DNA from: Crossiella equi
GTDB taxonomy: Bacteria; Actinomycetota; Actinomycetes; Mycobacteriales; Pseudonocardiaceae
NCBI RefSeq assembly: GCF_017876755.1
Contig: NZ_JAGIOO010000001.1
Coordinates: 992,001 to 1,056,000 of the forward strand
DNA length: 64,000 bases
Direction of reading: 5' to 3'
The notes beneath the pieces were generated by a model. It saw nothing but the letters and a program-made list of their open reading frames with translations, made no database searches and had not been told where the DNA came from. The translations under genes were made by a program, and so were the position numbers. Positions 46,595 to 50,886 of this stretch are shown in pieces (position 1 is the first letter of the stretch; each line of letters opens with the position of its first letter).

Positions 46595-48460
46595 ATGCAG
46601 ATCGCGGTGGAGATCATCGGGCTGGTCGTCGCGGTGCTCGCGGTGGCCTTCCTGGCGCACAGGCTGAACATGTCCGCGCCACTGTTGCTGATCGTGGCCG
46701 GTATCGTCGCCTCCTTCATCCCGGGTGTGCCGGACTACGTGCTCAACCCGGACGTCGTCCTCTTCGGACTCCTGCCGCCGTTGCTCTACGCCACGGCCAT
46801 CCGCACCTCCCTGGTGGACTTCCGCGCCAACCGGGGCCCAATCGGGTTGCTCTCGGTCGGCCTGGTCATCTTCAGCACGTTCGGCGTCGGCATCGTCGCC
46901 TGGCTCGCGCTGCCCGGGGTACCGCTGGCCGCGGCGATCGCGCTCGGCGCGGTGGTGGCGCCCCCGGACGCGGTGGCCGCGACCGCGGTGGCCCGGCGGG
47001 TGGGCATGCCGCGCACGATCGTGCGGGTGCTGGAGGGTGAGAGCCTGGTCAACGACGCGGCCGCGCTGGTCGCGCTGCGCACCGCGACCGCGGCGATGGC
47101 CGGTGCGGTGAGCTTCTGGCAGGTCGGCGGCAACTTCCTGCTCGCCGCGGGCGCGGGTGTCCTGGCCGGGCTGCTGATCGGCTGGCTCAGCGCGTTCGTG
47201 CGCACCCGCCTCAACGACGCGGTCTTCGACACCGGCATGTCCCTGGTCGTGCCCTACCTGGCCTACCTCGCGGCGGAAGCCGTGCACGGCTCGGGTGTGC
47301 TCGCGGTGGTCATCGCGGGCCTGATGCTCGGCCACAAGGAACCGCGCATGCTCAACGGCGCCTCGCGCATCGCGGGCACGGTGAACTGGCAGACCATCCA
47401 GTTCCTGCTGGAGAACGCGGTGTTCCTGCTCATCGGTCTCCAGCTGCGCCGCATCCTGGCCGAGGTCGGCGAGACCGACGTGCCGATCCCGACCGTGGTG
47501 CTGGCCTGCACGCTGGTGCTGCTGGCCACGATCCTCACCCGGGTCCTGTGGATGGCCGGGATCACGCTGTTGCGCAAGGCCTTCCGCCTGCGCGCCTGGC
47601 GGTGGCGGTACACCGCGGTCACGGCCTGGGCCGGTATGCGCGGGGTGGTGACGCTGGCGGCGGTGTTCGTGCTGCCTGAGGACACCCCGCAGCGCCCGGT
47701 GCTGGTGCTGGCCGCGTTCGTGGTGGTGGCGGGCACGCTGTTCCTGCAAGGCGGCACGCTGCCGTGGCTGGTGCGCCGCCTGCGCCTGCCCGCCCCGGAC
47801 CCGGCCCAGGACGCGTTGCAGGAGGCCACCCTGCTGCAGAAGATGACCAAGGCGGGCCTGGACCGCCTGGAGGAGGAACGCCGCCCGGAGGACACCCAGG
47901 AGGTGCTGGACCGCCTGCGCACCCGCCTGAACAACCGCACGAACGCGGCCTGGGAGGCGCTGGGCCGCTCCGTGGACGACCTGGAGACGCCGAGCTTCGC
48001 CTACCGCCGCCTGCGCCGCTCCATGCTGGAGGCGGAGATGGAGACGCTGCTGGCGGCGCGGGACTCGCGAGCGGCCGACGACGTGGTGCTGCGCCGGGTG
48101 ATGGACACCCTGGCCATCGAGGAGTCCATGCTGGACCGCTCGGTCACGGTGGCCGCCTCGGACCCGGAGACCACGGGCTGGCTGCGCCCGAAGACCACCT
48201 CGGAGGTCTGCAAGCACCTCAAGTCGGCGCCGTACCACGTGCCCGCGCTGTCGGAGGAGGGCTGCCAGGACTGCCTGGTCGAGGGCACCACCTGGGTGCA
48301 CCTGCGGCTGTGCCTGACCTGCGGCCACGTCGGCTGCTGCGACTCCTCCCCCGCCCAGCACGCCACCCGGCACTTCCGCGAGGAGCAGCACCCGGTGATG
48401 CGCAGCTTCGAGCCCGGGGAGAAGTGGCGCTGGTGCTTCGTGCACGGGGTGGTCGGCTAG
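46595..48460 (+). CDS. Na+/H+ antiporter (CPA1) fused to a UBP-type zinc finger
   Basis: A 621-residue protein from the ATG at 46595. Residues about 1-400 hold twelve or so membrane helices with the CPA1 signatures GAVVAPPDAVAATAVARRVGMP and LEGESLVNDAAALVALR. A cytoplasmic helical region follows to about 530. The C-terminal 75 residues form a UBP (ubiquitin-hydrolase-type) zinc finger: CQDCLVEGTTWVHLRLCLTC, GCCDSSPAQHATRHF, HPVMRSFEPGEKWRWCF. The finger may sense a C-terminal peptide or a metal. The transporter exchanges Na+ or K+ for H+. Confidence 0.88.
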   Translation: MQIAVEIIGLVVAVLAVAFLAHRLNMSAPLLLIVAGIVASFIPGVPDYVLNPDVVLFGLLPPLLYATAIRTSLVDFRANRGPIGLLSVGLVIFSTFGVGIVAWLALPGVPLAAAIALGAVVAPPDAVAATAVARRVGMPRTIVRVLEGESLVNDAAALVALRTATAAMAGAVSFWQVGGNFLLAAGAGVLAGLLIGWLSAFVRTRLNDAVFDTGMSLVVPYLAYLAAEAVHGSGVLAVVIAGLMLGHKEPRMLNGASRIAGTVNWQTIQFLLENAVFLLIGLQLRRILAEVGETDVPIPTVVLACTLVLLATILTRVLWMAGITLLRKAFRLRAWRWRYTAVTAWAGMRGVVTLAAVFVLPEDTPQRPVLVLAAFVVVAGTLFLQGGTLPWLVRRLRLPAPDPAQDALQEATLLQKMTKAGLDRLEEERRPEDTQEVLDRLRTRLNNRTNAAWEALGRSVDDLETPSFAYRRLRRSMLEAEMETLLAARDSRAADDVVLRRVMDTLAIEESMLDRSVTVAASDPETTGWLRPKTTSEVCKHLKSAPYHVPALSEEGCQDCLVEGTTWVHLRLCLTCGHVGCCDSSPAQHATRHFREEQHPVMRSFEPGEKWRWCFVHGVVG

Positions 48461-48581
48461 AGAATTTTCGCCGTGGGTGTTGAGCCCTCCGGACGGCGTC
48501 GCCCGGGGCACGAACGACTCGGACGGCCCTCGCAACCGGCCGGTCCGCCCGGCCTGCCCCGGTAGCTCTCAAGGGTCGTGC

Positions 48582-48761
48582 GGCCTGACCAGGCAACCCC
48601 ACTGCTCGTGTGGCCTGACCAGGCAACCCCACGACTCGTACGGCCAGACCAGGCAACCCCACGACTCGCGCGGCCAGACCAGGCAACCCCACGACTCGCG
48701 CGGCCAGACCAGGAAACCCCACGACTCGCGCGGCCAGACCAAGAAACCCCACGACTCGCGC
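48582..48761. repeat. Six tandem 30-bp repeats
   Basis: Six contiguous 30-base units with consensus GGCCAGACCAGGCAACCCCA followed by CGACTCGCGC. Units 3 and 4 are identical. Units 1, 2, 5 and 6 differ at one to six positions, and a seventh partial copy (GGCCTCACTAG) touches the first hairpin. Inverted copies of the same unit lie at 49140-49199. Confidence 0.9.
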
Positions 48762-48771
48762 GGCCTCACTA

Positions 48772-48896
48772 GGCGTGTTGGCCGTGTGGGTACCTCGTGT
48801 TGGCACGGAGAGGACGGCCGGTTCCCCCAGGCCCGAAGGCCGCAGGGGCGGCCTCCACGCAGGGCCAACACGAGGTACCCACACGGCCAACACGCC
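48772..48896. repeat. Hairpin 1: perfect 33-bp inverted repeat
   Basis: 48772-48804 and 48864-48896 are exact reverse complements. Arms start GGCGTGTTGGCCG, then the 4-base variable part TGTG, then GGTACCTCGTGTTGGC. The 59-base loop is GC-rich and has its own pairing potential. Confidence 0.92.
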
Positions 48897-48904
48897 CGGC
48901 CCAG

Positions 48905-48997
48905 GGGCGAAACGGCGAAGCCGTAAGCCCGGAGCAACCCATCAGTCGTACACCCCGGGGGGCGTTACCCCGGGCTCACGGCTACGCCGTCTCGCCC
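48905..48997. repeat. Inner inverted repeat at the centre of the element
   Basis: 48905-48932 pairs with 48970-48997 in 25 of 28 positions around a 37-base centre that includes CCCCGGGG. It is the symmetry axis of the whole element, near 48951. Confidence 0.8.
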
Positions 48998-49005
48998 ACC
49001 GACCG

Positions 49006-49129
49006 GGCGTGTTGGCCGATCCGGTACCTCGTGTTGGCCCTCCGGGCAGGGCCGCCCCTGCGGCCTGCGGCCTCGGGGAAGGGCCGTCCCCTCCGTGCCA
49101 ACACGAGGTACCGGATCGGCCAACACGCC
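49006..49129. repeat. Hairpin 2: perfect 33-bp inverted repeat
   Basis: 49006-49038 and 49097-49129 are exact reverse complements. The arms equal those of hairpin 1 except for the 4-base variable part, here ATCC, which is changed in both arms so that pairing is kept. Its 58-base loop reads, in inverted orientation, much like the loop of hairpin 1. Confidence 0.92.
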
Positions 49130-49139
49130 TAGTCAGGCC

Positions 49140-49199
49140 GCACGAGTCGTGGGGGTTTCTGGGCAGGCCGCACGAGTCGTGGGGTTGCCTGGTCTGGCC
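49140..49199. repeat. Two inverted copies of the 30-bp repeat
   Basis: Two 30-base units (GCACGAGTCGTGGGG...GGCC) that are the reverse complement of the left-hand unit, closing the symmetric element. The copy number is two here against six on the left. Confidence 0.85.
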
Positions 49200-49338
49200 G
49201 CACGAACCCTCAAGTGCACCAGGAAAGGGCGTTCCAAAGGCAACTGTCCGGGAGCGGCCGATCGACAGGGAACACCCACGGCGAAAAACCCACTGGTGGC
49301 ACGGGGGCTGGCGGGGTGGTCTCGCCAGCCCCCTCACC

Positions 49339-50886
49339 TCAGCTCCGGCGGCAGGTCGCCGGGTCCGGGGACACGCTGCTGAAGATCGGCCCGGTGTGGC
49401 CCACCTCCCGCGTGGGCTCCCAGGTCTGGGTGTCCGGGTAGTACCGGGTCCACAGGATGTTCTCCCGCGAGGCGGTCACCGCGTCCAGCACGTAGACGAT
49501 GTCCGCGCCGACCGAGACGAGCTTGTCACCCGGGAAGCCCTTCGTGGTGATCACACCGGACGCGCCCGGGTGCTCGTAGCGGACCACGGTGCCGTTGGTG
49601 AGCGTGCCGTAGAGCGCGGTGCCGCTGGCGACGACGGTGCGCGTGCCGTGCTTGGCCAGCCACTGCGCGTCCACGACCTCGCCGCCCGGCCGCTCGAACT
49701 TCTTGGCCGCGTAGTCCCAGACGTACTTCAGCAACTGGCCGTTGTAGGCCGTGCCCGCCTGGCCGACGCGGTAGAGCACGCCGTTGGCGTCGACGGTCAT
49801 CTCCTGCGGGTTGGTCAGGTGGTACTGCCAGCTGGTGCCGACCTTCTCACCGCCGGTGAGCACGCCGTTCTGGTAGCGCCACAGCCGCAGCGTGCCGTCC
49901 ACGTTCGGGTCGGCGGTGCCGTTGCGGCGGTGCACGTTCCAGATCCAGCCGTCCGGCGCGGTCTTGATGATGCCGCGCAGCTTGTTCGCCTGCGGGCTGC
50001 CGTTGGCACCCCAGGTGTTCGTCGGCGCGAGCGCGGCGGGCCCCTCGGCCGTACCGGTGTTGAAGCGCGGTACGAAGTTGGTGTCCAGGTTGAGGTTCCA
50101 GGCCGTGGACGGGGCGCAGGTGACGTTGTCGTCCTGGTCGACGTCCGCGACCCACCCGCCGAGATCGTCCACTCTGGACTCGACGGCGCCGTTGCGGGAC
50201 TGCACCGTGCCCGCGCAGCCCTGCTGCCAGGACGCACCGTGCACGCCTACCAGCTCCAGGCCCTGCGGGGTGGTGCGGTACAGCGGGCCGCCCGCGTCGC
50301 CCCGGCACACCGAGGCCGGTCCGGCGATGCCGAGCGTGGTCGGGTTGACCGCGGTGACCGAGGTGGCGGCCTGGTGCTGGCGCGCGGTGACCCACTCCTG
50401 GCTGGTGCGGCCGAACCCGGTCATGGTCAGGGCATCACCCACGGCGGGCGGGGTGGTGGCCAGCCGGGCCGGGGTGGCCAGGTCGCCGCGGTAGGCGAGC
50501 TTGGCCAGCACCAGGTCCCGGTCGGTGCGCGGGAAGATCTGGGCGACCGGGATGTAGGCACCGGGCTCGCTGGAACCGCCCAGGGTGAAGTCGGCCGAGG
50601 AGCCGAATCGGGCCATCACCCGCATCGGCGGGGCGCCCTGGGCCAGCGTGGCCGGGTTGGCCGGGTCGGCGGCCAGGCAGCTGGCGGCGGTGAGCAGCAG
50701 GCGCGGGCGCACCAGCACGCCGCTGCACTGCCGGTCGCCGTTGCCGATCTCCAGGCGCGCGGTCTGCCCGTAGGGCTGGCCAGCGCCGCCGCTGACCGGG
50801 GTGCCGCCGCTGATCGCGTTGGCGGACAACGGGGTCAGCAGGAACGTGGCGAGCACGAGCGCCGGGAGGGCGCGGGCGGGCCTCAT
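49339..50886 (-). CDS. Secreted trypsin-like pseudo-protease with C-terminal propeller-like domain
   Basis: A 515-residue protein from the ATG at 50886, which overlaps the stop of the gene before it (ATGA). The signal peptide ends at ANA. The N-terminal 250 residues have the chymotrypsin fold (ISGGTPVSGG, QCSGVLVRPRLLLTAASC, DRDLVLAKL, VCRGDAGGPLYR). The catalytic His is Ser69 and the catalytic Ser is Ala198; only Asp124 remains, so it cannot be an active serine protease. The C-terminal 250 residues (WNVHRRNGTADPN, LYRVGQAGTAYNGQLLKYV) look like a tachylectin-type beta-propeller. A binding or scaffold role is likely. Confidence 0.8.
   Translation of the reverse strand: MRPARALPALVLATFLLTPLSANAISGGTPVSGGAGQPYGQTARLEIGNGDRQCSGVLVRPRLLLTAASCLAADPANPATLAQGAPPMRVMARFGSSADFTLGGSSEPGAYIPVAQIFPRTDRDLVLAKLAYRGDLATPARLATTPPAVGDALTMTGFGRTSQEWVTARQHQAATSVTAVNPTTLGIAGPASVCRGDAGGPLYRTTPQGLELVGVHGASWQQGCAGTVQSRNGAVESRVDDLGGWVADVDQDDNVTCAPSTAWNLNLDTNFVPRFNTGTAEGPAALAPTNTWGANGSPQANKLRGIIKTAPDGWIWNVHRRNGTADPNVDGTLRLWRYQNGVLTGGEKVGTSWQYHLTNPQEMTVDANGVLYRVGQAGTAYNGQLLKYVWDYAAKKFERPGGEVVDAQWLAKHGTRTVVASGTALYGTLTNGTVVRYEHPGASGVITTKGFPGDKLVSVGADIVYVLDAVTASRENILWTRYYPDTQTWEPTREVGHTGPIFSSVSPDPATCRRS

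Follow-up and report, generated by a model that had tools for sequence, protein, structure and literature searches.

A CTAG-tipped foldback element at gene ends in Crossiella equi, with core-bearing copies oriented toward the replication origin

What kind of object is the large, almost mirror-symmetric repeat between two convergent genes of Crossiella equi, and how did it come to lie there? We analyzed it in a stretch of 64,000 nucleotides, called the window here (RefSeq assembly GCF_017876755.1, contig NZ_JAGIOO010000001.1, positions 992,001 to 1,056,000), from a genome consisting of one contig of 9.44 Mb. The original prediction, made from the letters of the window, had described six 30-bp repeats, two perfect 33-bp-stem hairpins, an inner inverted repeat and two inverted 30-bp repeats, all of which we recovered (Table 1). 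The repeats are as described, but the boundaries 48582-49199 do not hold, as an outer inverted repeat common to the copies extends the element to 48457-49295. From the outside in, the order is a CTAG-tipped terminal inverted repeat (TIR, ~25 bp), a subterminal stretch, six 30-bp units, CTAG, hairpin 1, a central stem-loop pair, hairpin 2, CTAG, two inverted 30-bp units, a second subterminal stretch and the other TIR.

Table 1. Features of the window element and its neighbours, and loci of related arrays and insertion sequences. Positions are those of the window unless preceded by a locus label.
Feature	Position	Strand	Remarks
Whole element, tip to tip	48457..49295	+	839 bp; boundaries common to copies
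Left terminal inverted repeat, CTAGAGAATTTTCGCCGTGGGTGTT	48457..48481	+	1 mismatch vs family TIR
Left array, six tandem 30-bp units	48576..48755	+	
Core module	48769..49132	+	364 bp; CTAG-bounded on both sides
Hairpin 1	48772..48896	+	perfect 33-bp arms 48772-48804 / 48864-48896
Central inverted repeat	48905..48999	+	about 48905-48931 / 48972-48999; two ACGGC..GCCGT stem-loops
Hairpin 2	49006..49129	+	perfect 33-bp arms 49006-49038 / 49097-49129
Right array, two inverted 30-bp units	49146..49205	-	
Right terminal inverted repeat	49271..49295	-	6 mismatches vs family TIR
Left flanking gene, Na+/H+ exchanger with C-terminal zf-UBP	46595..48460	+	Pfam PF00999, PF02148; start approximate
Right flanking gene, trypsin-like protein, convergent	49339..50886	-	Pfam PF00089; start approximate
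931-bp IS5-family insertion sequence, three copies	L025 5460-6390; L026 5472-6402; L216 10754-11684		
22-bp array loci	L039-L045, L047-L069, L100-L129		

The flanking genes are indeed convergent, but the interval between them, predicted to be gene-free, is not purely intergenic: the CTAG at the left tip contains the TAG stop of the left gene, which ends at position +4 of the element. The right gene stops with TGA 43 bp outside the element, and the right tip of this copy has no CTAG (the minus strand reads CAGT there). Mechanical, program-listed ORFs, which are predicted frames only, cross the element. The left neighbour is in itself a fusion of a Na+/H+ exchanger to a UBP-type zinc finger at its C-terminus.

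An arm pair of 131 nt (48696-48826 / 49075-49205) is complementary at 86%. Folded as single-stranded DNA, the whole element reaches -345.7 kcal/mol on the plus strand, where 20 shuffles average -199.2 (z = -25.8), and -375.9 kcal/mol on the minus strand, where 20 shuffles average -209.0 (z = -28.9). Foldback of the whole element on either strand is far beyond chance. The suggestion of a non-coding RNA found no backing in Rfam, where 16 matches all fell below the gathering score.

Is the element a single oddity or a family? Used as a query, it gave 129 matches in its own genome. The terminal repeat matched 48 times with up to two mismatches, always inside one of 26 elements, at both ends in 22 of them and at one end in 4. 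The hairpin core is present in 24 of the 26, whole in 19 and partly lost in 5 (L027-L031); L032 and L033 are short elements without a core, and the right end is missing from L019 and L028. IS-bearing and end-truncated copies aside, lengths range from 276 to 854 bp, and the only transposase seen inside any element is that of an insertion sequence (IS) nested in L025 and L026. The core has a mean identity of 96.5% over 23 copies. Hairpin 1, whose long loop also pairs, is nearly invariant in the core comparison, loop included, unlike the outer arrays, which vary among copies. The most variable stretch of the core falls within the central inverted repeat, and the hairpin 2 arms, perfect in the window copy, carry a mismatch in most others.

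In 30 relatives, four of them congeneric, the terminal repeat gave 0-2 matches each at up to two mismatches, which is background level in the four congeners, and no autonomous partner with the same TIR was found in the own genome or in these relatives at the same threshold. The exact TIR pattern had no match in a genome-contig collection, and the element none in plasmid and phage collections; records of the own genome may be absent from all of these. The original prediction had treated a unique element absent from relatives as grounds for abandoning it; this one is multi-copy in its own genome, yet absent from four congeners. A literature search returned nothing on the element, on such Crossiella repeats or on insertion into CTAG stop codons, which does not prove that no such report exists.

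The CTAG at the tips recurs in resident ISs. L025 and L026 are each interrupted by an identical 931-bp IS, two frames of which match the IS5 family (DUF4096 and DDE_Tnp_1; the first frame also NCBIfam transpos_IS5_3). This IS is flanked by CTAG on both sides, and uninterrupted copies have a single CTAG at both places, which is direct evidence that a resident IS5-family IS duplicated CTAG. Its third copy lies within the CTAG common to two convergent stops. Other CTAG-bounded ISs belong to two further, unrelated families, IS982 and IS481 (998 bp at L037/L189, 1093 bp at L227/L233, lengths including CTAG). Five un-nested IS copies were examined, and four of them have at least one stop-codon tip and lie between convergent genes. 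Compared by eye, the TIRs of the element and of the IS5-family IS have little in common beyond the CTAG-AG tip. The CTAG tips of the composite and the CTAG borders of its core fit movement of the IS type, and we therefore read it as non-autonomous and moved in trans. The composite itself probably duplicates CTAG, rather than carrying it as part of its ends, and the transposase that moved it presumably acted in trans; no parent family is assigned, as the parent may have been lost or be more distant.

Where do the 26 elements sit? Genes were called with a simple codon model trained on the own genome, not taken from a curated annotation. By these calls, 18 elements lie between convergent genes, 8 between tandem and none between divergent genes. 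Twenty of the 26 carry CTAG at the left tip and 18 at the right. In 24, a neighbouring gene stops in frame at one tip or both, L010 and L029 being the exceptions. On the left, 17 copies supply the in-frame TAG of the left gene, and L027 does so with a shift of 1 bp; on the right, 12 supply an in-frame stop for the right gene, and 6 copies do this at both tips. A regular 800-kb sample of the genome contains 217 CTAGs, or 0.27 per kb. Coding sequence accounts for 16 of them and stop codons for 50 (26 at convergent and 24 at tandem sites); the rest lie in intergenic places, 142 assigned and 9 unassigned. In the same sample a single CTAG is common to overlapping TAG stops in 9 of 108 convergent gene pairs, an overlap already described (PMC2174442). 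Placement of elements at stop-codon CTAGs far exceeds what supply predicts (24/26 versus 50 of 201 non-coding CTAGs in the sample, Fisher p = 2e-11). Their preference for convergent over tandem sites does not exceed the supply of stop-site CTAGs (18:8 versus 26:24, p = 0.22). A longer target motif around CTAG was considered and dropped, as 24 copies showed only mild flank preferences (G adjoining the tip in 15 and 16 of 24).

Orthologous junctions in four congeners (labelled G001-G004) were compared for 18 of the 26 sites. Both flanks were adjacent at five sites, which gives 17 junctions (L012 in one congener; L015, L017, L024 and L025 in four each). The element was absent from all 17: 15 were bare, with genes overlapping or stops separated by no more than a few dozen bp, and the other 2 held unrelated 22-bp arrays (L024 in G001 and G002, with 293 and 378 bp between probes). 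It therefore arrived in the present lineage, mostly at native gene ends. Together with the 26 copies, this supports the suggestion of a dispersed mobile unit of an actinomycete. The stop of the left gene in the window is at the native codon position (GGC TAG versus GGC TGA, GGC TAA, GGA TAG and GGT TAG, by eye). Also by eye, the stop supplied by the tip coincides with the native position of the relatives in L024 left, at the L017 tip, in the right gene of L015 and at the L031 tip (the last versus G002), and lies off it in L015 left, L024 right, both L025 genes and L012 left. Insertion thus sometimes set a new gene end rather than using the native one. A CTAG at the site before insertion is not directly visible, because in most cases the orthologous stop of a relative is TGA or TAA.

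L010 and L027, whose flanks do not adjoin in the congeners, and L026, for which only one flank was found, gave no empty site to read. At the L010 and L027 flanks and one L026 flank, congener homology ends at or near the element ends, and the L010 and L027 flank pairs map apart; the elements may therefore mark rearrangement breakpoints. Downstream of the ortholog of the left gene in the window, where the right neighbour differs from ours, G001 and G002 again carry 22-bp arrays and G003 and G004 none. Unrelated repeat families thus occupy the same junctions (L024 and after this gene) in G001 and G002, as if these were a general landing niche.

The 22-bp unit, GTGTTGGCCG-N5-GTAC-NNC, forms genus-specific arrays, frequently in opposed pairs close to the 3' ends of genes. 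Tandem matches number 127 in C. equi, 122 in G002, 47 in G003, 6 in G001, none in G004 and none in 145 other genomes of the family. The hairpin arms of the element are built from this unit, which among named genomes was found only in Crossiella sp. S99.2 (5 stretches). Genome-wide enrichment of the arrays at convergent junctions was considered and set aside: the regular sample lends it no support, though loci fetched by match lean that way. Separately, solo modules (L034-L038, L043) consist of CGTGCGGCC-type units adjoining an ACGGC..GCCGT stem-loop at gene ends and are related to parts of the composite.

The left and right subterminal sequences of the element differ, and every copy therefore has a direction. 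Eleven core-bearing copies read on the plus strand (0.72-4.65 Mb) and 13 on the minus strand (6.18-9.00 Mb); dnaA lies at 4.843 Mb, with the computed antipode at ~0.12 Mb. All 24 core-bearing copies point toward dnaA and the origin (p = 1.2e-7), as do 25 of all 26 copies (p = 8e-7), with L033 reversed and L032 in agreement among the short ones. The plus-strand share of coding averages ~0.41 to the left and ~0.61 to the right of dnaA (means of 40 sample rows). When all 26 copies are placed on a tree, 10 changes of replichore are required (bootstrap 8-11), near the shuffled mean of 9, so that copies of both replichores are mixed in the tree; changes of strand number 9. The orientation rule is kept across this tree by all copies but L033, on branches that are weakly supported (3 of 23 inner branches starred, with 2 independent supported pairs among the 24, both concordant). 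As controls, two IS982 copies run in opposite directions within one replichore, and three IS481 copies in the left replichore are split two to one in direction. The IS5-family IS is concordant in 3 of 3 copies so far, two of them nested, a number too small for a verdict. Of six clearly related solo modules, those at 0.76, 1.78, 4.34 and 6.35 Mb read plus and those at 9.04 and 9.11 Mb minus, 5 of 6 being concordant; a looser scan gave 11 of 17, with some chance matches, at least one of them certain (1029688). The lock may thus belong to the composite in particular or to related repeat modules more widely.

We bring what was observed (the number of copies, their tips and the stop codons at which they lie, their absence from congeners, an IS that duplicated CTAG, and the orientation) under one reading: the element is probably a non-autonomous, CTAG-targeting, MITE-like foldback composite that spread in one Crossiella lineage by insertion coupled to the replication fork. 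An outer module of CTAG-tipped TIRs and 30-bp arrays would at some point have gained the CTAG-bounded double-hairpin core, and the resulting composite would then have spread within that lineage. A transposase supplied in trans would cut at CTAG and duplicate it, a tetramer that is rare in the genome, concentrated outside coding sequence and often placed in stop codons, including overlapping convergent ones. Insertion at a CTAG common to convergent stops would leave both genes whole, because each keeps a TAG. With insertion coupled to the fork, the minus strand of the window would always be in the lagging-strand template, and core-bearing copies would therefore point toward the origin in both replichores. 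Fork coupling is our favoured cause of the orientation, and fork-coupled insertion by an end-discriminating transposase seems its simplest account. A stronger form of this reading is tentative: a gene-less, almost mirror-symmetric element of DDE type might have its orientation fully dictated by fork direction, its two almost identical ends being distinguished at a moving fork without a Y1 enzyme. As the one reversed copy has no core, the double-hairpin core would under that reading be the part that reads the fork.

The main rival is selection for a polar function. Insertion would be blind to the fork, and wrong-way copies would be lost afterwards, either because the element has a polar job (a marker of segregation or fork polarity, KOPS-like, or a polar fork barrier) or because it carries a polar cost. 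We regard this as unlikely, even though it would yield the 24/24 orientation and agrees with the same lean of the solo modules. The near invariance of hairpin 1 beside variable outer arrays and the high core identity also favour it, but conservation of the core could equally follow from recent spread or gene conversion. The core is, moreover, nearly symmetric, so that polarity must reside in small differences, and both the background level of the terminal repeat in the four congeners and the use of sites of this kind by ISs of three families argue against such a role.

Less probable still is that the element ends transcription in both directions, or insulates, between convergent genes and has been retained for this in the manner of BIMEs, with mobility secondary. 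The predominance of convergent sites and the absence of divergent ones suit it, as do the unrelated 22-bp arrays that two congeners hold in the same place at the L024 junction and after the left gene of the window. Arrays of that unit in match-fetched loci likewise lie at 18 convergent, 7 and 4 tandem and no divergent junctions (12 ambiguous, of 41). The regular 800-kb sample gives another picture, with 22-bp units at 1 of 108 convergent, 3 of 401 tandem and 1 of 108 divergent junctions, and the convergent share of the elements stays within CTAG supply. Orthologous gene pairs manage without the element at 15 of 17 junctions, and the orientation is left unexplained.

Transposition of single strands by an HUH/Y1 enzyme (IS200/IS605 or REPIN/RAYT) would give lagging-strand orientation directly and suits the strong foldback on both strands, but is very improbable, as the genome has no match to the Y1 transposase profile PF01797 (the only HUH profile searched, positive in 5 of 14 control genomes), and as long TIRs with CTAG on both sides are unlike IS200/IS605-type elements, which are not known to have long terminal inverted repeats. 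With no Y1 enzyme found, the element is therefore no REPIN, and the proposed REPIN/BIME identity fails in its strict sense, since units of ~280-850 bp with TIRs and CTAG tips are not a pair of short palindromes. Palindromic repeats and convergent or unidirectional contexts (here 18 convergent, 8 tandem) are shared with REP, REPIN and BIME sequences, but the present element is far larger. In PMC3733652, GTAG REPs are placed between uni- and convergently transcribed genes, with ends that often supply a TAG stop.

The preferred reading, a non-autonomous CTAG-targeting composite, is closest to the MITEs of CTAG-targeting DDE ISs (IS5, IS481 and IS982 type), which share with it TIRs, the lack of a gene, many copies and CTAG on both sides. 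The CTAG duplication by the resident IS5-family IS and the bare congener junctions add to this likeness. The element differs in having its own core and arrays and in that no partner with the same TIR was found, and its strict orientation was not found in the IS982 and IS481 copies examined. A further comparison is with the MIRU of mycobacteria, which is also an interspersed repeat placed on the stop codons of adjoining genes; MIRUs are small and lie in tandem stop/start overlaps. Folding of the whole element on itself is shared with foldback elements (Drosophila Foldback, Galileo), and long, internally repetitive inverted arms are described for Galileo (PMC3573991). This likeness is one of architecture; the present element is bacterial, shorter than 1 kb and tipped with CTAG.

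Replication-linked orientation of transposons is already known and has been linked to specific transposition proteins and to the beta clamp. PMC5371812 describes it for Tn7 via TnsE, for IS200/IS605 and for IS families with beta-clamp-binding transposases, and such binding also appears in PMC4549789. In those cases orientation goes with named transposition proteins, whereas here 24 of 24 core-bearing copies of a nearly symmetric element without genes follow it. The novelty would lie in how strongly such an element is locked in orientation in a genome with no detected Y1 enzyme. The 24/24 lock stands beside IS982 and IS481 copies that share the CTAG target and are unlocked, which narrows the question to the way in which an element end senses the direction of the fork. 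The sites suggest a survival rule for a gene-dense, high-GC genome, in which transposons may persist at stop-codon CTAGs and above all at one that two convergent genes have in common, where both reading frames survive an insertion.
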